Origin: Onchidella celtica
Taxonomy: Eukaryota > Mollusca > Gastropoda > Systellommatophora > Onchidiidae
NCBI GenBank assembly: GCA_963931925.1
Contig: OZ007569.1
Location: forward strand, 43,928,521 to 43,992,520
Direction: 5' to 3'
DNA: 64,000 nt
Shown: positions 1,210-63,115 of the stretch, piece after piece
Position numbering within the stretch: position 1 is the first letter of the stretch
Layout of the letters: every line of letters starts with the position of its first letter
Translations under genes and position numbers: made by a program
Notes under the pieces: generated by a model
Told to the model about the DNA's origin: nothing
Database searches by the model: none
Seen by the model: only the letters and a program-made list of their open reading frames with translations

Positions 1210-2839
1210 ATACGAATGGCGGTTTCCCTGGACACGTTATTATGGGTGTCTCATTCTTTCCTTTCTTCGTTTCTCATCATTTCTTCCTGTTTCTCTCTCT
1301 GTCTCTCCCTTTCCCACCTGCCCCTTTTTTCTTCCCGTGTCATAACGTACGTGGCGTATCGGTTAATCTTTAATCTATAAGCAACTGGGTGCATTCTGTT
1401 TGCAGGACAAGCACGCCCTCTGACACTGTTAGTAACGAGAACGAAATTCATTTTCAACGACAAAACTTTTACCTATAAGAATTAATTTGAGGAAAAGTAA
1501 CGTGAAGCCTTTCTGTGTCTCTCTCAGACCTAAAATATAACATTCGGGGTTAAAGTATAGTTCATATTTTGAAACTTACTTGCATTTTTGTTGAAGTTTA
1601 ACCCTGCAGTGCCCAGACGCAGATACCCCAAGCCAACATAACAATTCTAAATCTCTCAAAACAGATTTTAAATGGTTAAATGAATGCAGAAATATAAGGA
1701 TGTATCTTGAAAATTATTAAAACTATGGCAATTGTGCTGATAAATCAGATAGTATTTCAAATATATAACACTGCCAATTAGGCGACTTGTTTGAGATATG
1801 GACTATTGGGCATTTAAGGGTTAAATGTACGATTGAAGCAACTTTCTGCTAGTGCTACACACTTTCATTTCAATTTCATGACAAAAGATTGTGTACCTTA
1901 CAGCAATTTCAAACACCAAAGCAAAGCAGGACAGACATTCAGCTTACATTATTTTGCATTTGCACGATTACATGTTTGCCGAAAAAAACAACAACAACAA
2001 CAACCCACACACACAGAGAAATGAACAAAACTTTCACCCCTTTCTTCATTACTTTACAAAATCTGTGTTATAACTTCATTTTGAAATCTGTGCACCCGCA
2101 CCAAGTGAAACTGTAGACAACATTCATCTTTCTCCTTTATAAAAATAATTATATTACATGTATTTTTATATGAGATATGCCTAATGTAATTACATGCATG
2201 TTGAAATGGCGAGAAAAGAAGTGTACGATGCCAAGTAACCTCATTTTGAACGCCTTTCCCACCCTGAAATGAAAGAACACTCAGTATGATATTGTGAAAA
2301 CACCGCCACATTTCCTGCATCTTGAGAAATGCACAGATTTCATGGGGAGCCAAGCAAACTGTGCACCGGTTATAACATTTACCTGAATATTTCAGGTTTA
2401 TACCGCACAGACCTTGTACACACATACCTCCACAGCATAGGTGTGTGTGGCTCATATGATTAACATTCCTCTGCTAACAATTGGAATAGTTATATCGTGT
2501 CAGTGCGCCAATTCACTTTTTACAATCGTGGTTTTTGACGATGTGCCATGAAATAATGAATTATGGGACCTGAGTAAGACAGGTTAAGGACTCATTAGAT
2601 TGTAAAAAGAAAATTATTATATCACGGATCCCAAGTTGGCAGCAGAAATTTGGACTTCAGAAACAAACGATTTTGAGCTGGTCTGGATTCGGATGTTCAT
2701 TTCAGCTGTCCTAGATGTTAATATACAGACACTGAAAATTCATAGTTCTGCTCGTGCTCTTGATTCAGACTTTATAAAAAAAAAAATCTATTCATTATTT
2801 AGAAATAATTCAACTTTCTTTCATGAATAAAAAACTGCT
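1080..2839. other. Non-coding stretch with one GA microsatellite
   Basis: A (GA)n tract runs at 1169-1207 and is followed by pyrimidine-rich DNA. The rest is AT-rich with only short chance frames. I see no gene, promoter or repeat with definable ends. Confidence 0.5.
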
Positions 2840-2905
2840 GGAAATTTCGCACTTATTCGATATGGACAGTTTGGAAATGTCGCACTTATTCGATATGGAC
2901 AGTTT
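2840..2905. repeat. 33-bp tandem duplication
   Basis: The unit at 2840-2872 is repeated at 2873-2905 with a single mismatch (GGAAATTTCGC against GGAAATGTCGC). This points to a recent slippage or duplication event. Confidence 0.9.
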
Positions 2906-3545
2906 CATAACTACCCCTGCAAAATGGAAGCTACTGCAGAGGTGCGAGATGGAGTAGGTCCACTAGAATGCTGTGGATGTATGAAATTATCAGAAGAAAA
3001 ATAATAAAGAAACGAGACGAAGATAAAGCATCTGGTTCAGACAAAATATGAGTGGATCTGGGGAAATCCAGCTTAATTTGAAATGTTTATATTATACCTC
3101 TTTCCAAAATGAAAATAAAGTATTTCTAAGAAGAGGATTTTAAATGAGTGCAGACAAAAAGCTAATCATTCATTAATATAAGCAAACTCAGATTCTGTAC
3201 AACAATTTTCTCCAGTCGGAGGAGTTTTCTCAGGAATTTGATCTTTCGCCAGATCTGTGCACAAATATTAAAAATGTTAACTTTTCCAGTGACACGATGA
3301 AAGTAAAATCTGTAGGCGTCTGGTAAAGACCACGAAAGGCCAAGAAAGGCAATGTACTGTAAACTAATTAAATCGGTTGGCCTATCATGAAGCCGCTGAA
3401 AGGCGGAGGACCCAAGGAGGAGAAAACTAAACAAATAACATATAAAAATGGATGGTATTTGAAATGGCTTCCTTATTCTAAACATATTTTTCGTTTAATA
3501 AAAAACAAGAATATTCACCCTCCCCCACACACCTTTTATTTAATC

Positions 3546-4600: not shown

Positions 4601-7600
4601 CCATTATATAAGCGGTGTCTTTTCTCGTGAATGCCGGTGCTAACCAAAGATGGTTTCATCTTATATGGCCTTTAGCGTCTTTACAGACGGTCTTAGCAGC
4701 TAGAATATTCACTTTCACTTTGACTGACAGCTTCTCTCGTGGCTTATTCTACCAATGTTTGACCCGAGAGTGCGATGGCAGTGATTGCAGGTCAGTCTTT
4801 TGGGTTCACTTTGGCGAGTGTTTTCATTCCGCCTCTGTCGTTTTGTCAGGTATGTTTCTTTTGCCTTGAAGTCTATTGCGAGCGTGCCACTGCGCAATTT
4901 TTGTCTCCATCTGCTTCGATCATTTGCAAGGTTCTCCCATTCATTGGGGTCGATGTTGAATGCTTTCATCGTGACCTTGCAAGTGTCTTTGAATCGCAGA
5001 TGTGGCCTGCCTCTGGGTCGGTTGCCAGTAGCAAGTTCCCCGTAGAGAATTTGTCTGGGGATGCGATCATTTTCCATACGGTGGAGATGTCCAAGCCACC
5101 GCAGTCTTTTTTTGCCTAGGAGAGCCTGAGTTGATGGAATGTTGGCTCGGCTCAGAACTTCGATATTTGAGATCCTGTCTTGCCACTTGATCTTGAGAAT
5201 TTTGCGTAGGCAGCGCAGGTGGAAGGAGTTGAGGGATCTTTCATGTTTGGAGTAGGTGGTCCATGTCTCTGAGCCATACAGCAGGGTGCTTAGGACGCAA
5301 GTTTGGTACACGAGTACCTTTGTTTTGATGGTCAGCTTGCTATTGTTCCACACCCTTTTTGAGAGTTTGCCAAAAGCTGTGGCCGCCTTTCCTATTCTGG
5401 CATTTATTTCAGTTGTTATGTCTGTGCTACCACTGATGGTTGAGCCTAGGTAGCAGAATTTTCCCACTTGCTCCAGAGAAGAGCCATTCAGCATGATTGG
5501 GTTGGGGTTTCTCAAGCCTTGTGTCAAAACTACAGTTTTTGAGACACTGATCCTTAGCATGAATTTGTCACAGGCTTTGGCAAGGCTATTGATGAGAGCC
5601 TGGAGCGTGGTTTCATCGTGGGCCACGATTGCAGCATCAACTGCGAAGAGGAGCTCTTGTAACATAATATGCTCTGTACGAGATTTTGCTTTTAGTCTGG
5701 CAACATTAAAAATGGAGCCGTCCACTCTGGTGTTAATAAGTACTCCACCTGAACATTGACCAAAGGCATTCTTGAGTAGGGCTGCAAAATATATACCAAA
5801 TAAGGTAGGAGCAAGAACACATCCCTGCTTCACACCGCTGTTTACAGCAAATGAATTGGATGTGCAGCCTTCAAAGTTGACACATGCCCTCATGTCAGTG
5901 TGGAAGGATGCAATAAGTTTTAGCAATGTTGGTGGACAGCCTATGGATTTAAGGACTGCATACAGGCCAGATCGGCTTACGGTGTCGAAAGCCTTTGTTA
6001 GGTCCACAAAGCATGTTATAAGCGGCCTGTTTTGTTCTTTACATTTTTCTTGGATTTGCCGAAGTGCAAATATCATGTCAATAGTTGATCGTTTGCTTCG
6101 AAAGCCACATTGTGTTTCTGGTAAGACTTTTTCCGCCAGTTGATGAAGGCGGCAGAGGATGACGCGAGCAAAAGCCTTTCCAGTAATGCTGAGGAGGGAT
6201 ATGCCTCGATAGTTGTTGCAGTCGCCTTTGTCTCCTTTGTTCTTGTAAAGTGTGACAATTTTGGCGTCTCTCATATCATGTGGTATCACGCCTTCTTTCC
6301 AACACTGCAGTAACAGATTATACAGGTGTGGTAATAGTGGGCCTTTTAGGTCTTTTAATACCTCTGCAGGAATGTTGTCACTTCCTGTGGCTTTTCCAGC
6401 AGACAGGTGGTCGATTGCATTGGAAGGCTCGACTAAGGAAGGTTCAGCGTCAAGTTCGGCCATTATTGGCAGTTTTTGGAGGTGTTCCTCAAAATCTGGT
6501 GGAATATTTTTCTCAGTTGAATACAACAGAGAGTAATGCTCTACCCACCTATTCAGTTGTTCATTTTTATCTGTGATGGGTTCACCATTTACAGACTTAA
6601 GTGGGGCGCTTTTGGTGATGATTGGCCCAAGAGCTACTTTCATCTGACTAAAGGCGGTTTTCATATCTCCCTTTTCATTTGCCTCTTGTATGCTGTTACA
6701 CAAGTCTGTCCAGTATTTGTTGGCGCAACGTCTTACCTCCAGCTGAAGTTTAGCTTTTGCATTTTTCAAACAAGTTTTTGTACTCTGATTGCAATTTTTG
6801 TTATACTCATTGAAAGCAGATTTCTTTTGCTCAATGAGAGGTAGGAGAATTTCGCTGTTCTGGGCTACCCAGTCGTTGTTTGAAACTTTATGCTGTCCAA
6901 AAGACTTGATGGCACAGTCATGAATTTTTGAACTGAGAGTGTTCCATGTTTCATCTACCGAGTCACATTGGGTGACATTATCCATGCTTTCAGCAAATAA
7001 CTTTTCAAATGACTTTCTATTTGATTCATCTCTGATTGCTGTTACATTGATCTTAGGGATTGAAGGGGCTTTTGATCTGTATATTTTCTTGGCCGAAATT
7101 TTGATTTTGCTGACTACCAGTGCATGGTCGGTGTCACAGTCAGCACTGTGGAGGGAACGAGTTATTTTTATACAGCCCAAACTCTTCCTCCTTGAGAGAA
7201 TAAGATCTAATTGATGCCAATGGCCAGACCTGGGATGGCGCCATGATGTTCTTTGGCATCTCTTAAGGTCAAAGTACGTGTTTGTAACACATAATGAGTT
7301 TACGGAGCATAGCTCCAGAAGGCGCTGCCCGTTTTCGTTGATGTTGCCAATGCCGAAGTGCCCAATGCACTTTGGCCATGCGGAGTGATCTGCTCCCACT
7401 CGAGCGTTAAAGTCACCCAGAATTAGCAGGCCTTCGGTGAGAGGGATGTTGTGGAGAGTCCTCTGCAATGCCTCGTAGAAAATGTCTTTGGTTTCGTCAG
7501 AGGAGGTAAGTGTTGGGGCATAGACACAGATAATGTTGGTAAAACCAGACCGGGTGTTCAGTCTGAGTGTCATGATGCGTTCTGACATTCCAATTGGAGT

Positions 7601-8520
7601 TGCGATCGAATTGATAAGGGAGTTTTTTACGGCGAAGCCCACGCCGTGGATTCTCGGCTGTTCGCTGCTAAGGCCCTGCCAGAAGAAGGTGTAGTTTTCT
7701 TCTTTGACTGACCCGGAGTCGGGAAGTCGAGTTTCTTGAAGGGCAGCGATGTCGATGTTTAGTAGCTGAAGTTCTCGATCAATAATTTGGGATTTCCTGA
7801 TGGAGTCAATATCAGTGAGATCTTGCTGTTGCAAGCCTGGGCGCATTGTTCTGACGTTCCAGGTACCAAGTTTTAGTATTTTTCTGTTTTTGCCAGGTGC
7901 ACACTTTACGTCAGCTTTTTGACTTTTGGTCTAGCTCCAACCACCTTATGAAGCAGGCTGACGTGGCGGAACAACACCCAACTGCCTGGGGGCTGCCCAG
8001 GTTACGGCGGGCGGTAGTTGATCAATGCAGCTGAAAAGCCGCTCCCACCGACAGAGGGGACCCCTGGCGCTCATCCGTACGCCAAATGGATTGAGCTTAT
8101 CACCGGTAACTGCCACCTCCCGTGTTGTGCCCATCCGTAACGGATGGCTGGAGTGTCCTCTCCAAATCGGAAATGGGTGGGCTTATAGAGGAGAGACAGA
8201 CGCTTGCCAAGCCCGAGCAAACGCCTCCTCGTTTTGCTGCCTTGCCTGGGCTATTTTTAAGAGATGGTGCTTTGCCCAGAGGCACCACCCCTCTCTCTGC
8301 CATTCTAGTTAAACCCAAGGGAGAGACCAGGTCAGTACATTTGGAACTAGTCCGGCTGCAGGAGATGCTGGAAGCCAGTTTGATGCAGTTCTCCCCGACA
8401 ACCACCTTCGGGTCTCCACTCCTGATTTTCTGTCTGGGTTTACTCCCATAGCCTTTGCTATCATAGCAACACACAAGGCAGTGTGGTATTTGTATTCAGG
8501 GTTACCTTCCCCTAGTCTTC
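4600..8520 (-). mobile_element. Non-LTR retrotransposon (LINE), near full length, minus strand
   Basis: The element reads right to left. An approximately 600-bp GC-richer leader (about 7931-8520) precedes one long ORF carrying an apurinic endonuclease, a reverse transcriptase and a C-terminal zinc knuckle, and then a short 3' region (about 4600-4714). Both outer limits are estimates, because I found no target duplication or clear 3' tail. Base composition is GC-richer than the flanks, as expected of a recently mobile coding element in an AT-rich genome. The single ORF with an N-terminal endonuclease excludes LTR elements. The LINE clade is not certain from reading alone. Confidence 0.9.
4715..7930 (-). 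CDS. LINE endonuclease-reverse transcriptase polyprotein with a damaged RT active site
   Basis: Target-primed retrotransposition protein. The first Met is at 7846 (1,043 codons), but the frame stays open to a TAG at 7931-7933. The upstream codons read LGTWNVRT just before that Met, the usual first strand of LINE apurinic endonucleases, so the true start lies upstream or has been lost. Residues below are numbered from the Met. The endonuclease shows LQETRL (36-41), VYAP (108-111), GDFNARVG (144-151) and TDHALV (239-244). The reverse transcriptase shows NNYRGISLL (544-552), FVDLTKAFDTV (613-623) and GVKQGCVLAP (671-680). The catalytic box reads FAVDAA (734-739) where FADD is expected: codon 736 (5639-5641) encodes Val, so one metal-binding Asp is missing. 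A Cys/His knuckle (CNHC...HERSC) lies near residues 1018-1040. There are no internal stops. Probably a young but catalytically dead copy. Confidence 0.92.
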   Translation of the reverse strand, partial: TKSQKADVKCAPGKNRKILKLGTWNVRTMRPGLQQQDLTDIDSIRKSQIIDRELQLLNIDIAALQETRLPDSGSVKEENYTFFWQGLSSEQPRIHGVGFAVKNSLINSIATPIGMSERIMTLRLNTRSGFTNIICVYAPTLTSSDETKDIFYEALQRTLHNIPLTEGLLILGDFNARVGADHSAWPKCIGHFGIGNINENGQRLLELCSVNSLCVTNTYFDLKRCQRTSWRHPRSGHWHQLDLILSRRKSLGCIKITRSLHSADCDTDHALVVSKIKISAKKIYRSKAPSIPKINVTAIRDESNRKSFEKLFAESMDNVTQCDSVDETWNTLSSKIHDCAIKSFGQHKVSNNDWVAQNSEILLPLIEQKKSAFNEYNKNCNQSTKTCLKNAKAKLQLEVRRCANKYWTDLCNSIQEANEKGDMKTAFSQMKVALGPIITKSAPLKSVNGEPITDKNEQLNRWVEHYSLLYSTEKNIPPDFEEHLQKLPIMAELDAEPSLVEPSNAIDHLSAGKATGSDNIPAEVLKDLKGPLLPHLYNLLLQCWKEGVIPHDMRDAKIVTLYKNKGDKGDCNNYRGISLLSITGKAFARVILCRLHQLAEKVLPETQCGFRSKRSTIDMIFALRQIQEKCKEQNRPLITCFVDLTKAFDTVSRSGLYAVLKSIGCPPTLLKLIASFHTDMRACVNFEGCTSNSFAVNSGVKQGCVLAPTLFGIYFAALLKNAFGQCSGGVLINTRVDGSIFNVARLKAKSRTEHIMLQELLFAVDAAIVAHDETTLQALINSLAKACDKFMLRISVSKTVVLTQGLRNPNPIMLNGSSLEQVGKFCYLGSTISGSTDITTEINARIGKAATAFGKLSKRVWNNSKLTIKTKVLVYQTCVLSTLLYGSETWTTYSKHERSLNSFHLRCLRKILKIKWQDRISNIEVLSRANIPSTQALLGKKRLRWLGHLHRMENDRIPRQILYGELATGNRPRGRPHLRFKDTCKVTMKAFNIDPNEWENLANDRSRWRQKLRSGTLAIDFKAKETYLTKRQRRNENTRQSEPKRLTCNHCHRTLGSNIGRISHERSCQSK

Positions 8521-8968: not shown

Positions 8969-9007
<39 letters not shown>

Positions 9008-9943
9008 TTTTGCCGCTTCCCAAGTGTAGTGAATATTGCAGCTGTGTCAAAATGCGGTCGGTCGCTAACCGCCGTGCACTCTTTTTTTCTCTCATAATTA
9101 TACGCATACCCACCCCCTCGCTTCTCTCTCTTCCCCCCCCCCCCCTCCCCTGCACCGTCTGTTAAATGAAACAAGAACTGCATTCCTAGAGCAAGTTTTC
9201 CTATTATGTACTGGATATAAATGTGCCAATAGTTCCAGGAAATTGTACCGCTCTTTGAGAATTTTTGGATTCAAATAATGCCGCTTCTGTTCAGATATCA
9301 GCCTTGTACCTCACATACTTGTAGGAATGGACAAAATCTGTGTGAAAGGTTATTACCAAGAAAACAATTCCAGACCTGAATGTGTAGTAATTTATCCTTG
9401 CCAAGACAATGGCAAGTTCGTGGTCACGCCAGCGCAGCCACAAGCTTCTTCTTGTCTCCTCACAGTCGCCCTTGTTGATAATTAATGGTTAGATAATTGT
9501 GTACTACAATGTACTAGCATTCCTCCCGAGTACCTTTGTATTTGAACATGAGACACTAAAAAAATAATACATAATATACTGGCCGTGCGTTTTCGATGAG
9601 TAAATCAGGGCCATTGTCTTTTTCAGCATGATTTTTCTTATTATTATAACATGTCTATTTTAGACGTAGAGTAAATCGGCTTTGGGAACTCGACACACCT
9701 GAGATAGTATCGTGTTTTTCTTTTCTTTCATGTAACCCTTACCCCCGAGGAGCTTCATCTTCAAATTAGTGATTGCTAAATAGTGAGGGTTAAACGGTAA
9801 TTTTTTTTTTTTTTTTTTATGGTAATCACAACGTTTGAGTCTGCCACATGATTATTCTTTACTGTAAGTTCAACATGCATGCTTATTTGATGACCAAAGT
9901 TTTTGTTGCAGTTGGTTACATTTCACAGAAAGCAATTTGAAGC
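8521..9943. other. Non-coding stretch with CT and AC microsatellites
   Basis: It contains CT and AC tracts (about 8638-8706), a second CT tract (about 8974-9004), a C-tract (about 9134-9145) and a T-tract (about 9800-9818). The open frames here are translations of these tracts. No gene or bounded repeat is visible. Confidence 0.5.
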
Positions 9944-10229
9944 CCTGCAACCCGGTGTAGGATCCGGTTTCGTCCCCCCTTGGAGATGGTCCCCCGGGGG
10001 ACCTTGTCAGAGCAGAAAAGGTCTCCCGGGGGACCTTTTCAGACTAGAAACTGCTCTGAAAAGGGCTCCCTTCAGCGATCCAGCCTCGCAATCGAAAACG
10101 AGGCTGGATCGCTGAAGGGGGCCCTTAGTCTGAAAAGGTCCTCCGGGGGACCTTTTCTGCTCTGACAAGGTCCCCCGGGGGACCATCTCAAAGGGGGGAA
10201 GAAACCGGATCCTACACCGGCACTACAGG
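9944..10229. repeat. Long GC-rich foldback (hairpin) with palindromic sub-modules
   Basis: The arms at 9952-10088 and 10099-10220 are near-perfect reverse complements around a 10-nt loop (10089-10098). The left arm carries one extra segment of about 16 nt (near 10047-10062). Weaker pairing extends out to about 9944 and 10229. Within the arms a 16-bp self-palindrome, GGTCCCCCGGGGGACC, occurs perfectly at 9988-10003 and 10169-10184, with one-base variants at 10020-10035 and 10138-10153. The block is far GC-richer than its surroundings. It has no ORF of note. It could be a foldback element, a non-autonomous transposon or a structured-RNA locus. No target duplication is evident. Confidence 0.95.
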
Positions 10230-10645
10230 ATTAATGTCTCGTCTTTGAGAAAAATCAATGATATCGTGTCTAAAAGACTTGGCCATAAGGCTCGACCCCA
10301 ATGGCTGACCCTAATTATAGGCAGTTTACGACCCTTCGATAGCGCTGACAACATTGATTTGTTTTGATGGGAAAGCACCGTATTGAATCGATGGTGCGTA
10401 ATTTGTGGTTAAGGGTGGTGGCGCACTGATTCAAATCAGTCTTGACACGGGTTTTAGTGTGAACTGAACTATGGAGTTGAAAGGTCCTTCGTGCACTGGC
10501 GAAATGGAAACACGTCTGTCTCACCAGTTATGGTGCGCCCACACTGTCTTGAGTCACCTGGCAGGAAGAAAGACCTGTGGGTCTCATGCCGAGCCAAAAC
10601 AGGTGTAAAACAAATCTGAATTTGGTCTGGCACCAGTCCAACGTC

Positions 10646-10726
<81 letters not shown>

Positions 10727-12716
10727 CCCGCCCCGTGAAATGTTGTTGAAACCCGTAATTGTTATATAATTATATCAACATAAAAACTTCCAAGTTTGTT
10801 TATCCTAGCTTTCCCGTGAAGTACCGTGCTGTGCGTGACATGGCCGTAATAGAGGAGGCTGGGGTTGGGTGTGTGAATGCATTATGTGGGTAAGACGATT
10901 ATCATTTCAATACATTGTGCACTTGATCCGTCTGTGTCCTGCCCGGACCACGCCTACGTTAAAGTCATAACACCTGCAGGAGAGAACAAAGCATATCATA
11001 AGATTAGGCCCAAAACCCCAGCAATCATCGAAAGCTGGATGAAAATATTGATGTTTACCTGAAGGTTTACCAGTTTTTTTCACATTACATCGTTGCGGTT
11101 GCGACTGTCAGGGCGGTCAATTCTAGCTTGAAAACAGAATAGGAAAAATGTGAAACGATCAAAGGTTTCCAAACTTCCAATTTTAAAAAAATTTTTTTTT
11201 TATAAAACTCTGATACAGTCTTTAGAAACAAGGGTAATCCGGACAAAAGTGAGGTAATCTCTTTTAGGCAGCGATTAAGTTTGGCATGCAATTAAAGGAG
11301 ATGTAAAACATTGTTAGTGGCAACGAGTGATAGTAATCTGACGTTTTATTTCGTGTCAGAACCTGAAGAACAACCAGCCCGCAAGAGACGAGGAAAGAAA
11401 CAAAAAAGCGACACAAAAGTGGAGATTTTAAAACGTTACTTTGAAGCATTTTGTTTGCGTGCAGCCAGGGATTGGCCTAATAATGTCCATTAGTCTGACC
11501 TGTCAGTGGAACCAACGGAAAATGCCTGGCTAAAGCCACAATGTAGGAATATGCCAGCTTGGCTGATATTGTGCATTATGATTCGATCTTCAGTCGGTGA
11601 TTGTTATGAGGTCTATCCTTTGTATTATTTCTAAAGGCACTGTTGTTTGAGCTACTTGTGTCACATCAATTTACGGATTAGTCAGAGCAGCTTATAACAG
11701 GTTCAGGATTAGTGGGACTTGTGAATCTGCCTTTCTGGTTGTTTCAGAGGCATGGAGCATTTAGCTTCAAATTTTTTATCGGCAACAATGATTATTAATT
11801 GGTTACCCTTCAAGTACTCAAACGTAATGTGACTCACCAAAATTTTCTGAAGGAAAAATGTAAAAAGTGACTTGAAATAGTGAAATAAATACCAAAATAT
11901 GAATATCCACCACCAAAAATTATGTGTTGGAAATTTGAAAGTGTAGAAAAATAGAGCTGAAATGTTTTCAAAAACGTGGAACACTGAGAGCTCGAGGATT
12001 AAACAACTTGTTGGTGTACTGTGTGCAGAAACGCTCCTTTCAGTCCAGTTGTGATGTATACAAATGTTAAAGTTCTGTCAAGTACAGTGTACTGCATTCA
12101 ACCACAAAAGACTTCTAACTCAAGTTTATCAGTTATCAGGACCGTGGTAAAAAAAATGAAACAAACAACGTTTGAAAGAATGCGTAAAGTGGAACTGCAA
12201 GCACGAAAGCATTATTTTTCAGTGCATTTATTTCAATATTATCGAAATGGCACCGTACTGCCAAGTGCAAACATCGCCCCACAGTGTCAGCTTCTTTGTA
12301 CTGCAATCAACTACACATGATCTAACACTAATTTAGTTTTTAGAGGAACATGTTAAAACTAATGCAAACAATTTTGCAAAGAATACGGTGAGTATGAGCT
12401 TGCAAGCAAAGAACACATGTTTAAGAAATGTATTCAAAAGCGTACTATTGCCGAAATGGCATCGCACTTCTAGCACTGTAGCAGAATACTTTCTAAATTG
12501 CCGACATTTAATATACAATGTAATAGCTTTTAAATTGTCTCTCTCTCTCTCTCTCTCCCCCACCCCCCACCCCCCACATACAGGCATACACACATTTTTA
12601 TTTTAGATAGCCAGTATCTCGTAGCCGTAATGAGGCAATTCATTGTTCCTTTAATATGACCCTTGAATTCTGTCCCACGCTTTCGGTGTTTAAATCTGCG
12701 GGCATGAAAGTCAAAA
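10230..12716. other. Non-coding stretch with a long CT tract
   Basis: A (CT)n tract of about 75 bp runs at 10649-10724, and a shorter CT/C-rich tract sits at about 12539-12578. A short basic frame (11361-11420, reading EPEEQPARKRRGKKQKS) follows a plausible splice acceptor at 11359-11360 but has no good donor, so I do not call an exon. Otherwise AT-rich with nothing recognisable. Confidence 0.5.
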
Positions 12717-14143
12717 GATAATAATAATAATAATAATATATTGCATTTATATAGCGCCCAACCCCGGCGATGACAAGCTCTGGGCGCTTTAACAAACTCT
12801 TACACACACACACACACACACGCATACACAAAAGAAATTCAAAAATATTTACTATTGTTGCTGCCGAAAAACACCTAGCCTAGTTTGTCTGAAAGAAATG
12901 GGTCTTCAGATGGCGTTTGAAAGAACCAATGTCATTAATTTCCCTGGTTGTCTTTGGAAGAGTGTTCCAGATGGTAGGGCCAAGAAATGAAAAGGACTTT
13001 TCTCCTACAGTGGACAGATTCATTTTAGGTACTTTCAATTTTGTAGTGTCAGATGATGATCTTAGTTGACGAGATGGAACACAGTAATCAGTTAAATCAA
13101 CTAGGTACGATGGAGCAGTATTATTGACACATTTGTGACAAATGGATGACAATTTGTACATTATTCTTTTCTCGACTGGCAGCCAGTGCAAACTCTGCAG
13201 AAGTGGCAGTGCTGAATCTCTTTTCTTTTTCTTCAAAACAAGTCTCGCTGCATTGTTTTGAGCAATTTGGAGTTTTCTAATATTTTTTTGTGAAATTCCA
13301 GCCAAAAGGGAGTTGCAATAGTCAAGCTTTGAAAGTACAAAAGAATTTACTAAAACAGCCGCAGTTTCAGTTGAAATAAGATGTCTGATTTTACCAATTT
13401 TCCAGATTTCCATGTACAGAATACGAATGAGGTGACTAACCTGAGATGACGTAGAAAGATTTGAATCAATGTAAACCCCTAGGTTTTTTACTTTTTTTGA
13501 AATTTCTATTGAATTAGTGCCAATTATCATCTCAGTTCTGTCCACTTCTTGCAGAACCCGCTCACGGCCTAATAAAATAACCTCAGTTTTATCCTCATTT
13601 AGTGCCAGTTTGTTTTGGTTCATCCAGCTTTTAATTTCTGTTATACAGTTTCCAGCCTGCTGCAGAAGGCTGTCAACATCGCATGGCAAGGCAGAACTGT
13701 AGAGCTGGGTATCATCAGCATAGAAATGATATTGTAAATTAAATTTCTTTATTTCATGTACAAGTGGAATAGTATAGATAGTAAACAAAATAGGACCAAG
13801 CACTGAGCCTTGTGGTACGCCATACTGAAGCGCATAAGAAAAAGATCTTATTTTGTTGGTTACAACAAATTGGTGGCGATTTGACAGGTAAGATTCGACC
13901 CATTTAAGGGCGACCCCTCTGATTCCAAACGAGCAGGATTTCGTGATCGATGGTGTCGAACGCTGCTGATAGATCCAACAAATTTAGCAGAGTAATATTT
14001 CCAGAATCTGCCTTTACTAATATGTCATTCATGATTCTTAATAGTGCAGTTTCAGTACTGTGGTTACTTCTGTAAGCAGATTGAAATGGTTCCAACAGGT
14101 CATTATTTCTCAAATGACACAGATCCGTGGGCTGCAGGATTTA
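12717..14143 (-). mobile_element. CR1-like LINE, 5'-truncated, minus strand, with intact 3' tail
   Basis: On the minus strand the element begins inside the reverse transcriptase at about 14143 and ends in a 3' untranslated region. That region carries a stem (GCGCCCA at 12754-12760 pairing with TGGGCGC at 12781-12787), then a TATATAAATGC segment and an (ATT)n tail (about 12718-12737 on the plus strand as ATA repeats). A 3' stem followed by a short microsatellite tail is characteristic of CR1/L2-type elements. A related stem and tail without coding sequence recurs at 56261-56330. An AC tract (about 12800-12822) interrupts the 3' region. Confidence 0.88.
12880..14140 (-). pseudogene. CR1-like reverse transcriptase, frameshifted and 5'-truncated
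   Basis: Two overlapping frames together make the RT domain. The upstream frame (about 14140-13904) reads QSAYRSNHSTETALL and then LLDLSAAFDTIDHEILL, which is motif A. The downstream frame (to the stop at 12880) continues with FGIRGVALKW, GVPQGSVLGPILF (motif B) and YADDTQLY (motif C, both Asp intact). It then has the usual CR1-type C-terminal region with LDYCNSLLAG and RLVLK. Compared with the family, the step from motif A to FGIRG lacks several residues and changes frame near 13918-13935, so a small deletion broke the ORF. The endonuclease and N-terminus are missing. It cannot make functional protein. Confidence 0.9.
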
Positions 14144-14306
14144 ATACAACCAGTATCTCGCCTAATGCTAATCTGATAGTGAGCCTAACGCGGATTTGCA
14201 AAGATCCTCATTTCATATTATTATCGTTATACAATGTTCATCTCAACAGCGCAACTCTTGTAATTGAATTCCAGGGTATCAAAACGCTACGAATGAAGTT
14301 TTTCAG

Positions 14307-14338
<32 letters not shown>

Positions 14339-15056
14339 CCATCCATTCAGTCCTATCAGAAAATTAATATTACGTTAGGGTGACAAATAATTTATAATTT
14401 ACCAGGCTGGCCGCTTTAAATTAGTAGACACAATAATAGAATTGTGAGAATGAGTTGTAAATTTAATGTGCTGCACTGGCATGGATTTGGGGCAAGATTG
14501 TCTGTCAGCGTCTTGAATGTGAGACAAGCAATCTTTGATGATTCTAGCCAAAATGGCAGTAAAATACTGGCAAGTTCAAATAGACATAGAATCTTTTACC
14601 CCCACATATTTTGTGAAGAACATTCGCGTAAAATGCACGTCTCTAGCCATCATGGCTCTCAAGCAGCGGCATTCAATTTTGAGGAATAAAATCAAGATCA
14701 GAGGACATTGGGAGCCAAAAGGCACCAAGTATACTAAATTCGTAAAAGATACTTTAAAAGACAAGCACCTTCAGGAAAGGGATTCATCTCGAAGTAGCTT
14801 CGAAAGTGCCAACAATTGTGACTGAAAAGTACAAATTTTAAAACGCTCCATTGCGTGGCGCTACGCCAAGGGCAATACGCCCTGATGTGCAAATCTTTAT
14901 GTAGCCATAGTGGTATGTTTGTCTTATTGTCCACCCCATCTTGTTTCTCTCTTGCGCTGACCTAATTATATTGGCAACGTGGTTATATGTAAATTACATC
15001 TAAATTTCTTTGTCTACACCTGGGCTTTGTACTATCCCTTTGTTAGTCCCAAACAG
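14144..15056. other. Non-coding stretch with an AAC tract
   Basis: An (AAC)n tract lies at about 14307-14340. A 96-codon frame at 14535-14825 has no recognisable domain or splice context, and I treat it as chance. No bounded repeat seen. Confidence 0.45.
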
Positions 15057-15226
15057 AGACGCTGCACGTGGACTATGCCCACGCTGGCATCGGTACCTTC
15101 TTTGTCTGGGCGATGCATTCCCTCCGCGGGTCAGCTGACCACTGGCGCGAATATAAGTTTGTCCAGTCTGACCACTTAGTCATATTCCTATCTGACGGCG
15201 AGGGGCACAGACATATTGAAAGCTAG
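15057..15226 (+). CDS. Possible terminal exon of an unrecognised gene
   Basis: I do not recognise the product. After a pyrimidine-containing acceptor (AG at 15055-15056, or 15057-15058), 55 codons run to a TAG at 15224-15226. They read TLHVDYAHAGIGTFFVWAMH and end SDHLVIFLSDGEGHRHIES. The coding signs are indirect: the segment is clearly GC-richer than the flanks, its third positions favour C and G, and the peptide has a balanced, globular-looking composition. The frame is closed by stops upstream of the acceptor, so it would need an upstream exon, which I could not find. It may instead be a remnant of a mobile-element protein. Treat as a candidate only. Confidence 0.3.
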
Positions 15227-15782
15227 TAGTAGTTAAAGTTCCATTTCACATATTGGGTAAGTTGGCATAAGGATTCTATAGGTAGTACATGTACTTAGTA
15301 ATTTTATGTGCTTTTCATTGTTGTAGTTTAAGTTGAGATATTGTTTTAATGTCTCATGTGTAGATGCTGTACTAAATTATTTTGTGACCTTGTGCACTGA
15401 TCACAGAGTGGAAGTATCGAGTAATTCCGGTAAAGGCCTATTGTGTGTCCGCGTATATTTACCATTAATAATGCGTTTCAATTTAGTATTCTGAGCCAGG
15501 CCTAGCTTTATTTTAGTGCCATGCATTCCTCCCAGTCCAGTTAAGCTATAATGCTGTTCTGTGCAGGTTTTATCATCTGTATCTGTTTGCGTGCACGTGG
15601 CGTGCCACGCGTTCTTTTATAAAATGCATTTCAAACTAGCGTCATACCAAAGTGATTGTCCAGTTGCCTGGTACATAGTAATTGCCTAATTTAGCCAGCT
15701 TTAAGCCTAGGTCCATACTGTTTACTACTATTGGATTGGAGTCCCCATAAATAAGCTTTCATTACTGTATGATGCGTTCCCA

Positions 15783-16186
15783 TCTATTATATATTTCAGT
15801 AACTTGCAACCTTTGGCACGACTAACTGACCAAACTATACACTCTTCAGGCCTTAAATTTAGCAGGAAGTTGACAATTGAGATAAGGAAGATGATGGCTG
15901 TAATTAAAAGTTGTTTACTTCAAGCATGTATTTTTTTAAAATAACAATGTTTATTGCTATGTAACATCTGTATTTTTGCACGTTTGTTTCGCAATATATT
16001 ATAGTACAGTGCATGCCATAAAAAGTAACCGTATCAAGCGTTCAGTTTGGTGCGTAGTGTTCTGGTGCACATGAGTTCTGAAGCAAGACTGTAGTTTATT
16101 ACTTTTATTATATTAGAGAGAGAAATAGGGGGGGGGGGGGAGCACATCATTGTTTATTCCGGGCAATGCCCAGTAGGTTAATCTAG
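15783..16186 (+). mobile_element. Non-autonomous Helitron, copy 1
   Basis: A 404-bp element that starts TCTATTATATA and ends CTAG, inserted between A (15782) and T (16187) as Helitrons are. A short hairpin (CCGGGC AAT GCCCAG, 16159-16173, one mispair) sits about ten bases before the terminal CTAG. It has no Rep/helicase coding. Near the 3' end it carries a short GA tract and a G tract (about 16114-16140). The whole length matches 55674-56076. Confidence 0.88.
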
Positions 16187-16317
16187 TTTAATATATTCTG
16201 GACGTTGTTCATACCCTTGGACCCGCCTTGATCTAGTCACTAAATCCACGTGACTACCCCTTTGTTTAGGTTAAGCTGCAGCTATGGTCTGCTTGGCATC
16301 ATCATTGGGTTTGGCCA

Positions 16318-16619
16318 TATAGACCCTTTTCGTTTACCGTCCTCCATATCACGTGATTTGCAAACAAAATGGCGGCGTACCCCACTTGTAGGGCGGAAGC
16401 GGTGGACAACAGTCGAACGATGCCATCCTCTTGTTGGGCACCCAACTGTACAGACCCGTTACGTGCTGGTTCTGGCATAAAAATGCATCTTTGCTTAGAC
16501 TGTGCACATATTCAGACGCCATCACTAAGGCAAGTTGAGGTTTTTGCCCTACACGGTGCTTTTCGATGCCATGCGGCTCCCCGCAAACAACCGTAACGCG
16601 GAAGTGAAAAGGGTCTATA
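16318..16619. mobile_element. Short TIR element with a THAP-like coding remnant
   Basis: Perfect 14-bp inverted termini read TATAGACCCTTTTC (16318-16331) and its complement (16606-16619). If the two outer bases are taken as a TA target duplication, the element proper is 16320-16617. On the plus strand an ATG at 16420 opens MPSSCWAPNC, which resembles the first C-x(4)-C half of a THAP zinc finger. The rest of the finger and any transposase are absent. P-element-type and other THAP-bearing transposons are the obvious possible parents, but the family is inferred from ten residues only. Confidence 0.7.
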
Positions 16620-17640
16620 CTAGCTACCTAGATTCTACGTAACCTCTAGGGGGGGGGGGATGGTTGTCCACCCTGTTTAGTACCTGTAAGGCCCGTGCTT
16701 CGATTATTATTTATCGATTGCTGTAGGCTATCAAGCGGACTTAGCCACCTTATTTGCTTCGTATGGTTTGGTTCTGCGCTCTAGGGCTGTATGTACATAT
16801 ATATATCAATTTACAGTTATTTATGCACATGTGTTTGTAGGTTTTTATGTATGCTTTTACAGTAATTATGATCAAGCTGTTGGATTTAGCTATATCGACC
16901 ACGTGGCAATGGCATTGTTGCCATGGTGTTGGGGTATCCAGCTTATAATACATACATTAGTTATGTTGGAGTTCGGATCCAATGCCTCTGGCTTGAGATC
17001 TTTGGGCCTCCACATGATCATAGATACTTCGGTGTATTTTTTACAATCTGAGTAAATTCTTGCATTTATTGATTATATTGTAGTTCTGGAACCTTGTATT
17101 GATTTTGATGATTAACGATGGGCTTATAGATTCTTATATGGTCACCAGCCTAGCAGTTTATATGATTAAGAAGGATTCAGACGACACTTCTAGGGGGACT
17201 TATGAATTATCATATGGTGGTCATCCTTGTGTGGTCCACGTAAAATAGTAATGCTTGTAAATAATATTGGCTACACAATCCATAGCCTGGGCCGTGCTTA
17301 ATTGCCATGAGGCCTGTTAAGTATTACTTTCGAACAGTCCCTGTGTTTTGGTTGATAATCTAAGCAGTAATATATATATGCTTTTAGGGGCAGTTCCCTG
17401 TGCATATTGTGTCGGGGTAGCACTTGTTGGAAACTGTCATCGGGCCGTAAGGGGCACCCTGATACTTGTTTCGGATGCTGAGGAAACTACTGCTGGGTTA
17501 CGTTCCCTTGCTATTTGTCATTTTTATTCTTATTAAGCCTTGGATGTTCATTATTTTCTGTATGCAATGTGTTCATGCTGTATATATATAATATTATGAC
17601 GTGTGCTTATGATGCTTTATTCTTTTGTCCCTACAGCCTG
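16620..17640. other. Non-coding stretch
   Basis: AT-rich sequence with a G tract (16650-16659) and short AT dinucleotide runs. I see no gene, TIR element or tandem array between the THAP-like element and the minisatellite. Confidence 0.45.
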
Positions 17641-17945
17641 AGCCGCTGTGTTGGTTCGCTTGGGTTGTGTTGGTTCGCTAGGGTTTTGTTGGTTCGCTTG
17701 GGTTGTGTTGGTTCGCTTGGGTTTTGTTAGTTCGCTTGGGTTTTGTTGGTTTGCTTGGGTTGTGTTGGTTCGCTTGGGTTGTGTTGGTTTGCTTGGGTTT
17801 GCTTGGTTTGCTTGGGTTTGCTTGGTTTGCTTGGGTTTGCTTGGTTTGCTTGGTTTGCTTGGGTTTGCTTGGTTTGCTTGGGTTTGCTTGGTTTGCTTGG
17901 GTTTGCTTGGTTTGCTTGGGTTTGCTTGGTTTCTTGGTTTTCTGT
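17641..17945. repeat. GTTYGCTTGG minisatellite, core period 19 bp
   Basis: A tandem array of TTGG-TTYGC modules. In the right half (about 17790-17935) the unit settles to 19 bp, TTGGGTTTGCTTGGTTTGC. The left half has a longer, more variable period and mostly TTCGC instead of TTTGC. All open frames across it (for example the QTKQTQANQ-type peptide on the minus strand) are translations of the repeat, not genes. Confidence 0.95.
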
Positions 17946-18278
17946 TGGTTTCTGTCCCCCCTTTTTTTTTGTGCTCTGAAATAAACGATAATACGTCTAC
18001 AACCCCACTATATATAGCAGAGTTAGTTATTTTGTTTTTGTCCTGACGACCGACCCATAACCCATCATTGTCGTCTGCTAACATTTAGGACAGTGCAAGT
18101 GTGTTCACGATGGCTGATAGCCCCTGATAGCCAACACAATATGCACATTCTGTAAAGTGAAAGTTACGAGCTATCTGGCGATAGATGTCGTGTTTTCGTA
18201 CAAGATAACGAACAACGAGTCATTGTAGCTAAGGCAAACTGTTAAAACGGAAAGTCGTACTAGAAATGATGAATTGGA

Positions 18279-18335
<57 letters not shown>

Positions 18336-19252
18336 GTTGAACGAAGAGCCCGACGAAGAAATGACAGTAAGAAAGATAAGAAAGAAAGGAAAAAAACATA
18401 TGACCAAAGTAAGACGGGGAGTCAGAGAGAGAGAGAGAGAAAGAGGAGATTGAATATAAACCCAGTGGGAGTCACAGTAAGAAAGATGGAAAAGAAAATA
18501 AGGAGCGAGTTAAACAAGGGCTTAAGGTGGTAGACCTGGGAGAGAGAAAGAAAGAAACTGAATTAAAAACCCGAACAAAACCACAACAAGAAAAGAACAA
18601 CAAAGAGATGGCATTAAAGCCAAAGAAAGACCTGAGAAACAAAAGAAAGAAACTGAATGAAACCCGAACGAAATCACAGCAAGACAAAGTAACGTAAAAA
18701 GGGAGAAATGACAATGGAAGAGGCGGATGAGAGAAAGAAGAGTTCAAATGGAAACCCAATAGCAACCGCAGCAAATAAGAAAGGGGGAGGAAGGGAGGAC
18801 AAACAAGGACCAAAATGAAGATATGGACCCAACAATTAGTCCTGCACCAGATTGAAAATCAATGACAGGCTTAATGAGCAGTGGTTCACGCCCCACGGCG
18901 AATCTGGCACTCAACAGGTAGAGCCGCTTCATAATATACACTTAATTAATATCATTAATATGGACAGCGAGCATGTTAGTACTCACATTCACAAGGGGGC
19001 AAAAATGCCACTTCCGTATTTTCGCAGTTCGAAGAGTCCAAATGATTTTGAATGTTCAGAAGTGTTGAATTAAAAGGGAAGCTGGAGGCATATTTTCCCC
19101 CCTCTCCCTTCATGTAAACTCAAGTGACATTTAAACGAATCTGGATTTTGATCAAATTGTGTTCAGGAAGAGTTTTAAGAATCCCCCCTCTCTGTGTCTG
19201 TCTGGAAGGAAGGTTCTCTGATATTTCACAGACATAGCCATCCTGAGGGTCC
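17946..19252. other. Purine-rich non-coding stretch
   Basis: After a (GA)n tract (18283-18334) the plus strand stays strongly purine-biased to about 18830 (GAAAG, GAGAG and AAGAA words with scattered AACCC). No gene is seen. The minus-strand serine/leucine-rich frames are translations of this bias. Confidence 0.55.
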
Positions 19253-20549
19253 GTGTGTTTCAGAGTTGGAAAAAAATCTGATTTTTTTCCAAAAAATAAA
19301 AAACAAATTATTTAAATCAGATTTTTTTTATTTAAATCAGATTTTTTTGATTTTAAAAAAAATACATAATACATTCAATATTTTGTCGACAAAATATTTT
19401 CTATAATTTCATAACATAAGCATAAGGGTACTAAAAGGATATAGTTAAATGACTCCTAATAATCATTACAGTCATGTACATTTGTATTTGTATTTGTATT
19501 TGTATTTGTATAACTCTTTAATCCCATTTGGGAAATTTTGCCTTTGTGCCATTGCAGCCCAGTTATAACTGGAGCAGGCACGTCGTCGCCACAGTGCAGC
19601 GCCGGTCGGCGTTTTTTTTTTTTTTTTTTGGGGGGGGGGAGATGAGGGGGGAGGGGGGGGACTGGTAGAGATGAATTTAATTTAATTTTGCCCGGGCAGC
19701 GGCCTGTTCGGCCTGCTCTTTACGATTTCCAACTGCCAAGGTATCTTTAACGTGCGCAACGTGCACACGGGCCCTCCGAATTTTTTCGTCCTTATCCGAG
19801 AAGACTAGGTACTCGATCCTACCCCTCAATAGAATTAGGGACACGAAAATATGAGAAAAATCCCAAACTTCCAACATGCCTGCACGGCCCGGGTTTCGAA
19901 CCCGGGACCCTTGGCACGAGAGGCGAGCACCTTGCCTCTAGACCACCTTGTTAAGTCTCTTCTGTCTCTTCACCTTTTTTACACATACTTTTGATGTGGA
20001 TGTTGAATTTAATAGGGGAAATAAATGAGTAGAAAGTTTTCCTTTCTTATATATTATCAGAATTTTCTGGATCTGATCTGTATGCCTGGATTTCACTAAC
20101 TGTTTTATAAAAATAAAGATGTTTATTTCAAATAAAATATAGGCCTTTTTCACTTACTTGACTGTCTTAATGTCTTACACAGGTACACAAAATTCAAATT
20201 CAGACTTATATTTTTGTTCAAGGTGTTATATTTGAATTGTGTCCTGCGACACATTCAAGTCTCCAACTGTTGTATGAATCAGCCAAAATCAGAAATTATT
20301 GAATGATGCATAATAATAATAATAATAGAGAAGCACTCCTACTTATCAGTGCCTTTAAGTCTAGTGCTTTTGAACAATAAAAACATCAAAAACAAGCAGT
20401 TTGAAAAAAAAAAAAATCCTTAAAAAGTAAAAAAATCAAAAAGTGATTTAAATCACTGATTTTAATTTAAAAAATCAAAGTGATTTAAATCAAAAAAATC
20501 ATTTGATTTAAATGAGCTTGATTTAAATCATGCCAACCCTGGTGTGTTT
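19253..20549. mobile_element. Non-autonomous hAT element with perfect 8-bp target duplication
   Basis: The element spans 19261-20541. It begins CAGAGTTGG and ends CCAACCCTG, imperfect inverted termini of hAT type. Both sides are flanked by the same 8 bp, GTGTGTTT (19253-19260 and 20542-20549), the target duplication length of hAT transposons. Subterminal regions are full of the self-palindrome TGATTTAAATCA and its fragments (19272-19350 left, 20430-20530 right). There is no transposase frame. A complete SINE lies inside (19479-19952), so the hAT insertion is older than that SINE. Confidence 0.92.
19479..19952 (-). mobile_element. tRNA-derived SINE, near-complete copy, minus strand
   Basis: On the minus strand it runs from a tRNA-like head (about 19952-19881) through a conserved body to a tail of ATACAA repeats (about 19512-19479). 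The head shows an A-box-like GTGGTCTAGAGGC and a B box with a full T-stem (CCCGGGTTTCGAACCCGGG on the plus strand, 19888-19906), as in Pol III-transcribed SINEs. The body includes a GTGCACACGGGCC-type segment and a CGGCCTGTTCGGCCTGC-type segment (on the plus strand), both shared with 20652-20887 and 57938-58030. A T/G tract expanded at 19611-19660 interrupts the body. The 66-codon minus frame here is a SINE translation. Confidence 0.88.
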
Positions 20550-20651
20550 AGGTCTTTATTTGAGGAGGTTTCGCTGACCTTGGCATTTACCCCTCACCTT
20601 TCTTGCTTTATTTTTCTTCTTGTGGTAGGGATTCGTTTGTTTTTTTTTAGA

Positions 20652-20887
20652 ATTTTGCCTGGGCTGCAGCTTTGTATGGCCTACTCTTCACGATTTCCAA
20701 ATCATTAGCGTGCGCAACGTGCACACGGGCCTTCCGAATTTTTCGTCCTTGTCCCAGAACACTAGGTGCTCGATCCTACCTATCTTAGGATGAGGGGCAT
20801 GAAAATATGAGCAAAATCCCAAAATTCCAACATGCCTGCACCGACCGGGATTTGAACCCGGTACCTTGCCTCTAGACCATCGTGTCC
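20652..20887 (-). mobile_element. tRNA-derived SINE, second copy, shortened
   Basis: Same family and orientation as 19479-19952: the conserved core (20660-20760), a middle block and a tRNA-like head with T-arm (CCGGGATTTGAACCCGG, 20845-20861). The head lacks the anticodon-arm part present in the first copy, so its Pol III promoter is broken. The 3' tail side is missing or lost before 20652. Confidence 0.82.
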
Positions 20888-22043
20888 CCCTAGGCGCCTT
20901 TCACACACTCATCCTGAGGGTCCACACCCACTCGAGTCTTATGGACTGGGGCGTTGTCGTAAGAAATCAAAGCCTTGGACAAGACGGTCTGGGCACTAGT
21001 TTCAACCTCAGGGTCCGCTGAAGGGAAAAGTGCCGGTACACGAGAGGAACACAATATGGGGAGTAAATAATAATCATAATTATGTTGAGCTTTACTTTCA
21101 GCAGTGAACCGTCGTTTTTCCCCAGTATTTGATCTGGCTGTAACAGTGTACGGTAAACTACTCAAGGTTTTGCAGTGTACCGGTGAACTTGGTGATGCAT
21201 AGAATGTGATTATGTAGGTTGTTTTCACATTGCATCAGAAAACCCTGTTGAAGAGAGTCATTCAGAAATTTGGCGTTTTACGATATACTTTTTATTATTA
21301 TTATTATTATTTTTTATGACAAAGCGTTTTAACTCTACAGAAAGTAATGAAGGAAATTCCTCTGTTACATTAATTTTACAAAATAGTGACATGAAGTACT
21401 TAGATTCAGTGTTGAAATGTGAAGTGTGACAGAACGAAGGAAAAATATTATATTATAATATATAAATAATAGATCACTATTATAAATAAGTATTGCCAGG
21501 TGCTCACTGCCCCTCACTGAGAACAATGACTATTTTAAAACATGCAATAAACAATGAACTCTCTTATAAAAGGAAAATAGAAGCTAAAGGTAAACGGAAG
21601 ACCACCAAGCTGCGGGTGACAAAGAACCGTTTCCCGGCTGATTATAGACCAGTTATTTAAAAAATAAAAAAGGAAATATTGAAAACGAATATCAGAAGGC
21701 TACATAATCAGCCTTCCGTTGGTGTGCTCTGCGATGCATAAATAGCTTTACTGCTCCAGTATGTTGGTTAATGGCGTGACCGGAAAGATAGTTTAGTTTG
21801 CACTGGTCTCGTGAAACATTGCCCCAGATTCACCAATTAGCGAGTAGTTTTGACGCTGGGCTGTGCGATATCAGCTGATTTATTGGTTGTTTGGGAACTC
21901 ACGAGGCCTTACTGACCTACTTTCTGGGGGGTTTTCGTTGGTAGTTAAATATAGCATGGACACTGGTTTTCTGAATCTGCAGGTGATGGGTGGATTAATA
22001 TGCGTGTTGAGTTCCAAATTTCGAAAACACTGCAAAGAAAGAT
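20888..22043. other. Non-coding stretch
   Basis: AT-rich with a short ATT run (21291-21316). The bases CATCCTGAGGGTCC at about 20909 also occur at about 19240, just outside the hAT element. No gene or bounded repeat is visible. Confidence 0.45.
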
Positions 22044-61645: not shown

Positions 61646-63115
61646 GACAGCATTAAAAACGTACCAGTGACTTTAAACAACAATTCAGACATGTGGTTGC
61701 AGAAACTTGACAAACTTTGACTAAGATTGTGTTGTCTAACCATTTATTGGTGTGATTTGAGTAAAAATTTTGGTAAATGAATACTCAAACACAAATGAAC
61801 CAGAAAGATCGGTGTTAGGGTGTAGTGCAAAAAATGACACTTACAATCGTAGTCATCTTCAGTAGCGGGTGTGATATCCACGAGCATCGACACATGCCTG
61901 GCAGCGACTCCGCATGCTGTTGCAAAGTCTGTCGAAAAAAAACTTGAGGTATTGCATCCCATTCAGCAAGAATAACTCGCTCCAAATCTAAGACAGTGTT
62001 AATGTGATGTTGTCGAATTCTTCTGCCTAATTCATCCCACGCGTGCTCTATTGGATTCATGTCCGGTGAGTTAGCTGGCCAATCCATAACAACAAACGGC
62101 TGCTGTCTGAGAAAGTTTGTCGTGAGATTCGCCGTATGGGGCCTGGCATTATCTTGTTGAAAAGTCGTCAGATGCTGGTGTTGTTGAAAAAATGGCACAG
62201 CGATTGGTCCTAGCACGTTATTGACGTAAACTGCAGCAGTTACATTGTTTCTGAAGACGTGTAACTGGGTGCGGTGACCATAAGAAAAACCACCCCAGAT
62301 ATGTACACTACCACCTCCGTAGCGGTTGTGTTGCGTAATACAGGCAGGTGTGTATCGCTCCCCAGTTCGTCGCCAGATGCGTATTCTCCTGTCCGCGAAT
62401 GAAAGATTGAAACGACTTTCATCAGTAAATAGGGTCGATCTCCACTCATTTCTTGGTCGACGGACATTGCGTTGGGCCCAGGCCAATCTGATTTCTGCGT
62501 GTCGTCTGGTTATGATATGGCCGATTAGTGGAAAAATTAACACTGGCATGTTTCACAGAAGGTCTTTAAATGCAAATGAAAGAAGTTTTATAAATTTCGA
62601 GCATTTATTAAGGGCAGAACTTGAAGGTGTTAGATTGTTCACGTGCGGCACGTGGAAAGTCGGACAAACGTTAAATCAACAAAATGACGATGGGACACCA
62701 AACAACGCATACAGACATTTATCATTAGCACAAAAACACAGCTACTGTGGCCATTCAGGGTCTAACACCGCCAATTCTTTGATTACACGCTTTGAGCAAG
62801 AAAAGCTGCATGGTGGAATCACTATAAATTCAACATTGAATCATAATCTGACACTGGCGTTTTGTTCCCAAGTTACTTGCGGTTGCTTGTGGTTCATTTT
62901 CAGCGACCTTTTTAAATTCATAGCGATACAATCGACTGAAATGTTATTTTTCACGTGACCCACGTGCAGTGCAAAGTTGCTGTAAAGTCAACAAAACAAC
63001 ACTGGCATACAAAGCTCAACATCCTCGGATCAACATAAATGATCAAAAAACATATGTAAAGACAACATGCAAACTTTTAAGACAAGTTTTATTGTGGTAC
63101 GTTTTTAATGCTGTC
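61646..63115 (-). mobile_element. Tc1-family DNA transposon with both ends, inside an intron
   Basis: Inverted termini of 20-21 bp (GACAGCATTAAAAACGTACC, 61646-61665, and its complement, 63096-63115) are flanked by TA on each side (61644-61645, 63116-63117). The 1,470-bp length fits Tc1 elements. It contains a minus-strand transposase catalytic domain (61815-62549). It lies between the two exons of the PAN/lectin-like gene, in antisense orientation, inserted in ATCC-rich simple sequence. Confidence 0.95.
61815..62549 (-). pseudogene. Tc1-type DD34E transposase, N-terminus not in frame
   Basis: Cut-and-paste transposase catalytic domain, 244 codons. The triad is Asp43 (FTDESRF), Asp133 (QQDNARPHTA) and Glu168 (MNPIEHAWDELGRR), with 34 residues between the last two, the DD34E spacing of Tc1. 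WGGFSYGHRTQLHVF and DWPANSPDMNP are also family hallmarks. Tc1 transposases are usually about 340 residues with an N-terminal bipartite helix-turn-helix. Here the frame opens only at the linker (RRHAEIRLAWAQ), and I cannot read the DNA-binding half in the 566 bp between 62549 and the right terminus. The catalytic core is intact but the protein is probably not functional. The plus-strand 210-codon frame over the same DNA is an antisense shadow. Confidence 0.9.

Follow-up and report, generated by a model that had tools for sequence, protein, structure and literature searches.

Introduction

Ginger1 DNA transposons are described by Bao, Kapitonov and Jurka (2010, PMC2836005) as having terminal repeats of 40-270 bp, TGTNR ends and 4-bp target duplications specific for CCGG or CCGT/ACGG. 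Their transposase is given there as Gypsy-like and encoded by an intron-bearing gene, with YPYY, H2C2, DDE, GPY/F and a C-terminal OTU or Ulp1. The same paper reports non-autonomous Ginger1 copies with the same ends in Branchiostoma, and Ginger2-1N1_NV, a 252-bp non-autonomous Ginger2 family with a 52-bp terminal repeat and the AT-rich target RTATAY. A review also gives 4 bp as the Ginger1 duplication length (PMC10045372), and an oyster satellite is labelled DNA/Ginger1 in another study (PMC8268682).

We analysed a 64,000-nt stretch of the Onchidella celtica genome, called the window below, in which a first-pass annotation had picked out a large hairpin. Two broader classes of mobile element bear on such a structure: foldback elements, which have long inverted repeats with a variable number of internal tandem units, and MITEs, which are short and non-coding, have terminal inverted repeats and target duplications, and occur in many copies with defined ends. 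The window hairpin is almost certainly a non-coding miniature of a Ginger1 DNA transposon family, an assignment made by features as described in PMC2836005. The hairpin, puzzling by its size, would then be a mobile element whose parent, target rule and history of origin can be traced.

Structure of the window element

The first-pass annotation had described a large, near-perfect foldback with a 10-nt loop at 9944-10229. We confirmed that the foldback is present in the sequence, far beyond chance. The RNA fold of this span had an energy of -266.4 kcal/mol, compared with -113.8 +/- 5.9 for 200 dinucleotide shuffles (z = -26), and folding the hairpin with DNA parameters gave z = -27. Inverted-repeat arms of 95 nt, at 9952-10046 and 10126-10220, were 96% complementary, and an inner 28-nt pair enclosed the 10-nt loop. 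The hairpin was therefore real, but its borders had been placed too far out: the element is 261 bp long, at 9956-10216, its ends read TGTAGGATCC...GGATCCTACA with one CCGG at each side, and the outermost bases of 9944-10229 are flanking DNA that pairs by coincidence. The left arm measures 133 nt and the right arm 118 nt, so that they differ by 15 nt and not by the 16 nt first reported. The genome had been called AT-rich; the surroundings of the element are only moderately so, with 43-46% GC in 2-kb bins. As annotated, each arm carries two 16-bp palindromes centred on CCCGGG, starting at 9988, 10020, 10137 and 10169; two are perfect and two have one mismatch, and the chance expectation was 0.03 (at up to 3 mismatches). 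The features of the element are as follows.

9952 to 9955, no strand: left target-site duplication CCGG, from the sequence, the CCGG flanks found family-wide and the empty L035 site
9956 to 10216, plus strand: non-autonomous Ginger1-type element (MITE), 261 bp, TGTAG...CTACA, most probably; from the repeat and end searches
9956 to 10088, plus strand: left arm, terminal inverted repeat, which holds 15 nt absent from the right arm
9988 to 10003, no strand: 16-bp palindrome GGTCCCCCGGGGGACC, left-arm unit 1
10020 to 10035, no strand: 16-bp palindrome, left-arm unit 2, 1 mismatch
10089 to 10098, no strand: 10-nt loop; the inner stem has a symmetrised form that L022 and L038 share
10099 to 10216, minus strand: right arm, terminal inverted repeat with the 15-nt deletion, most likely inherited
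10137 to 10152, no strand: 16-bp palindrome, right-arm unit 2, 1 mismatch
10169 to 10184, no strand: 16-bp palindrome, right-arm unit 1
10217 to 10220, no strand: right target-site duplication CCGG

Some 430 bp farther downstream lies a long CT microsatellite, at about 10650-10724.

A dispersed family of short copies

We searched the 1.14-Gb assembly (43 contigs). Contig 43, of 13,988 bases, is mitochondrial; genetic code 5 reads its COX1, and both strands bear long frames resembling mitochondrial genes. The element as query gave 104 matching pieces and 57 first-look candidates, 40 of which were scored. A 21-nt end pattern with up to 3 mismatches gave 51 + 45 = 96 genome matches, compared with 5 + 4 = 9 for the reversed control. 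The 57 loci that we inspected comprised 50 short regions and 7 long elements; both ends were present in 36 short copies of 146-293 bp and in all 7 long elements, which span 1.6-11.6 kb. Fourteen short regions were set aside because one end was missing when up to 3 mismatches were allowed in the 17-nt end. Of the fourteen, L040, L041, L043 and L045 are ends of long elements and were examined apart, and in two others (L034 and L039) a 20-nt pattern allowing up to 4 mismatches showed both ends. L012 and L013 were the only pair found to share both flanks, so we counted them as one insertion and left L013 out of the substitution analysis (35 copies) and the flank counts (42 independent insertions). 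When the 100-bp flanks of the window copy were searched against the genome with very common words skipped, they matched just those two flanks themselves.

The 36 short, two-ended copies place the family among MITEs. Their outer arms carried 46 substitutions in 3360 positions (35 copies), or 1.4%, and this low sequence divergence points to a young family. Arms that are 96% complementary could also come from an error of assembly or from a recent inverted duplication at the site. Such an origin is scarcely credible for this hairpin: dozens of dispersed loci with the same structure and ends lie between different flanks and refute it.

CCGG at the insertion sites

The annotation had also proposed a genome check for other copies and for duplications in their flanks. 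The dispersed copies bore this out, with CCGG flanking both ends in 34 of the 42 independent insertions and missing on one or both sides in 8. CCGG is its own reverse complement and so could belong to the terminal repeat, as we suspected from flanks of the form TA...TA and C...G. L035 sits in a repeat, and an empty version of that repeat lies inside the window.

59391 to 59520, minus strand: unoccupied paralogue of the L035 insertion site, with the L035 flanks continuous, one CCGG at the junction and the element absent

This paralogue ruled out a CCGG inside the terminal repeat. L028 lies in a tandem repeat whose next unit reads CATTCCCGGGTCA and also has a single CCGG. Comparison of these occupied and empty sequences, each of the latter with one CCGG, shows that CCGG is a 4-bp target-site duplication. 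A MITE from another superfamily, with CCGG in its terminal repeat, would fit the self-complementarity of CCGG and the TA on both sides of it in several copies; we consider it extremely improbable, given the single CCGG at both the empty L035 site and the L028 tandem unit and the H2C2/rve/OTU transposase sequence in long elements with the same ends.

The target context around CCGG is non-random. Compared with 65 other CCGG sites in the window, base -1 was T in 0/42 insertions (background 25/65), base -2 was A or T in 37/42 (33/65), base +2 was A or T in 39/42 (37/65), and base +3 was a pyrimidine in 37/42 (24/65). Differences were not significant for base +1 not A (39/42 vs 57/65, p = 0.52) or base -3 purine (33/42 vs 40/65, p = 0.09).

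CAGG replaces the left CCGG in L018, L019, L030 and L038, and CCTG replaces the right one in L038 and L056. TA precedes the left CAGG in all four insertions. Simple CpG decay does not explain these borders. The left border of L027 reads ATGG instead of CCGG. Both flanks of L027, and the right flank alone of L051, match a tRNA-Glu-like repeat that occurs near 19.9 and 20.8 kb in the window. The tRNA-Glu-like sequence itself lies within this repeat at 19881-19951 (minus strand), with a related copy near 20.8 kb, and the repeat resembles a tRNA-derived SINE.

Long relatives and their transposase

Parts of an H2C2/DDE integrase-like transposase, an OTU domain or both were found in 5 of the 7 long elements. 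The most complete is L051, in which an H2C2 exon at 521-829 is followed by a 581-aa frame at 1557-3299 containing the remainder of H2C2, rve and OTU; the exon borders carry GT and AG. Its rve domain scored 34.2 bits (cut-off 32.6), with Integrase_H2C2 split over the two exons, and OTU (PF02338) scored 36-38 bits in L051, L011 and L009 (cut-off 23.3). Against the Protein Data Bank, the L051 protein matched Ty3 integrase (E 1.4e-19, 334 residues) and PFV integrase (3.8e-15, 207 residues), and its C-terminus matched OTU-domain proteins. By eye, we picked out a GPY/F motif (RFVGPYKIV, aligned with YVGPFRVV of Ty3 integrase), counted DD35E spacing, and found YP...Y...LY in the first exon, upstream of the zinc finger, at the place expected for YPYY.

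The other elements are less complete. L009 and L011 carry the OTU part, L047 rve and OTU, and L048 H2C2 and rve. The H2C2 exon was matched at 76-100% identity inside or adjoining the end-bearing elements L010/L011, L051, L047 and L048, and also beside an end on C18 at 11593527; further matches on C6 (97%) and C9 (86%) had no listed end close upstream or around. Terminal inverted repeats measured 232-236 bp at 97% in L009, 199 bp at 99.5% in L010 + L011, about 190-210 bp at 78% in L051, 60 bp in L049 and 40 bp in L050, and were in several pieces in L047 and L048. Frames for reverse transcriptase in L009, L010 and L049 belong to nested retrotransposons. L049 and L050 were absent from the H2C2-exon and transposase match lists (75 of 13,235 candidates scored in the transposase search). 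Because short-copy end markers surround a 1299-aa retrotransposon frame in L049, a retrotransposon has probably interrupted a short copy at this locus. As a separate observation, a second integrase-OTU family (L087 on C8, L088 on C3 and L089 on C2) shares about 39-40% identity with the L051 transposase, and the matches listed for it include several frames of 650 aa that run without interruption.

The window family thus shares with Ginger1, as described in PMC2836005, the CCGG duplication, the TGTNR ends (the window copy has TGTAG, as has the majority row for the 36 short copies), the length of the terminal repeats, and an intron-bearing transposase gene with an H2C2 and DDE core, GPY/F and OTU. 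It differs in that its terminal repeats are built of 32-bp units in tandem, each holding a CCCGGG palindrome of 16 bp, such palindromes being absent from the passages of PMC2836005 consulted, and in that its short copies consist almost wholly of inverted repeat. Ginger2-1N1_NV is similar in length and is likewise short, non-coding and derived from an integrase-type DNA transposon, but it targets RTATAY and has a 52-bp terminal repeat, unlike the CCGG-targeting window element. Foldback elements share the long inverted repeats and internal tandem units, whereas the ends, target duplication and coding relatives put the window element in Ginger1. The suggestion of a foldback transposon was therefore right as to a mobile element and wrong as to class, the hairpin being almost surely a short Ginger1 derivative. 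Such a derivative is not new in kind, because the Branchiostoma copies and the 252-bp Ginger2 family are known. As far as titles and abstract openings go, a partial coverage of the Ginger1 literature, this family is not described there, and we regard it as a known kind of element and a new family.

These features suggest how a short copy may arise and move. Loss of its interior would leave a long parent element with its terminal repeats, 118-133 bp in length, nearly adjoining, and for that reason the remnant would fold on itself. Transposase from the long genomic copies could then bind the ends of the short copies and excise them, a mobilisation in trans, and the excised element would be inserted at CCGG with duplication of those 4 bp.

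Unequal arms and palindromes

One full arm and one arm with a 15-nt deletion were found in 29 of the 36 short copies. L023, L053, L054, L056 and L057 had the full marker and lacked the deletion marker, and no full marker was found in L046 or L058. The deletion also occurs at one end of coding elements (the right end of L051 and the left end of L047) and likewise at one end of L049. The arm asymmetry was most likely inherited from a parent of the L051/L047 type, judging from these shared sequences. The first-pass annotation had read the extra nucleotides as evidence for conserved pairing; a deletion common to 29 of 36 copies and to the ends of coding elements provides no such argument. Nor was there an excess of mutations shared between outer arms. 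When the outer 48 bp were examined for homogenisation of the arms (35 copies), one of the 46 substitutions, in L012, was present in both arms of an element, against a permuted mean of 0.14, and this value was reached in 666 of 5000 permutations.

The CCCGGG palindromes are part of 32-bp tandem units in the terminal repeats of the parent, with two units per end in L009 and L010/L011. Short copies have mostly one to three palindrome units per arm, often unequal between arms. Among 70 arms (35 copies), the first palindrome was perfect in 54, had one difference in 10, two in 5 and seven in 1. We saw no extra conservation of the palindrome in the 35 copies: its non-CpG substitution rate, 17/980 (0.0173), exceeded, if anything, those of the adjoining regions, 6/910 (0.0066) at the terminus and 11/1050 (0.0105) at positions 18-32. 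Palindromes no better conserved than their neighbours fit a role in the source element, for example in transposase binding, and not selection on each copy. Tandem palindromes may bind the transposase.

A host structure kept for the pairing of its stem, such as an origin, an insulator or a small-RNA precursor, would account for the very stable fold (z = -26). We consider it very unlikely, because the hairpin is a dispersed repeat with target duplications, its first palindrome exceeds both neighbouring regions in substitution rate, and the single shared outer-arm substitution is no excess over permutation. Rfam gave zero matches at the gathering threshold in 9000-21500. The origin- or insulator-like role raised in the first-pass annotation found no support here.

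Loop variants

We scored loop orientation relative to the deletion-bearing arm in the 36 short copies. The loop was one way round in 12 copies and reversed in 8 (7 insertions). Six copies had a symmetrised loop, in one form in the window copy, L022 and L038 and in another in L018, L020 and L036. Five copies (L023, L053, L054, L056 and L057) form a second junction lineage, and in five (L026, L042, L046, L052 and L058) the loop was shortened or unscorable. Both main loop forms contain the junction CACTCGCTG, so that one birth followed by an inversion is the simpler account; two separate births at similar breakpoints would be the less simple alternative.

Template switching between inverted repeats yields arm homogenisation and spacer inversion, according to Abraham and Hazkani-Covo (2021, PMC8604942). 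The loop orientations and symmetrised forms are what template switching would give, with the loop inverted in one lineage and the inner arms made identical in two others. We tentatively propose, as a possibility with the balance against it, that the palindromes are a binding array for the Ginger1 transposase and that the stem has been repeatedly rewritten by hairpin template switching during replication or transposition. If so, the copies would document in nature both template switching in a hairpin and the reading of ends by an integrase-type transposase. Because the family appears young (about 1.4% outer-arm substitutions), traces of its internal deletion, of the inherited loss of 15 nt, of loop inversion and of symmetrisation would still be readable, and it may be useful as a natural set for hairpin template switching and for end recognition by Ginger1 transposases.

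Other mobile sequences in the window

The window holds other sequences of mobile-element type. At 4715-7930 (minus strand), about 2 kb from the hairpin, a frame of 1071 aa runs without interruption and contains endonuclease and reverse transcriptase domains; it is apparently an intact non-LTR retrotransposon protein. A partial reverse transcriptase frame of 367 aa was found at 12880-13983 (minus strand). At 61815-62552 (minus strand), a 245-aa frame carries a DDE_3 transposase domain and is presumably Tc1/mariner-like.
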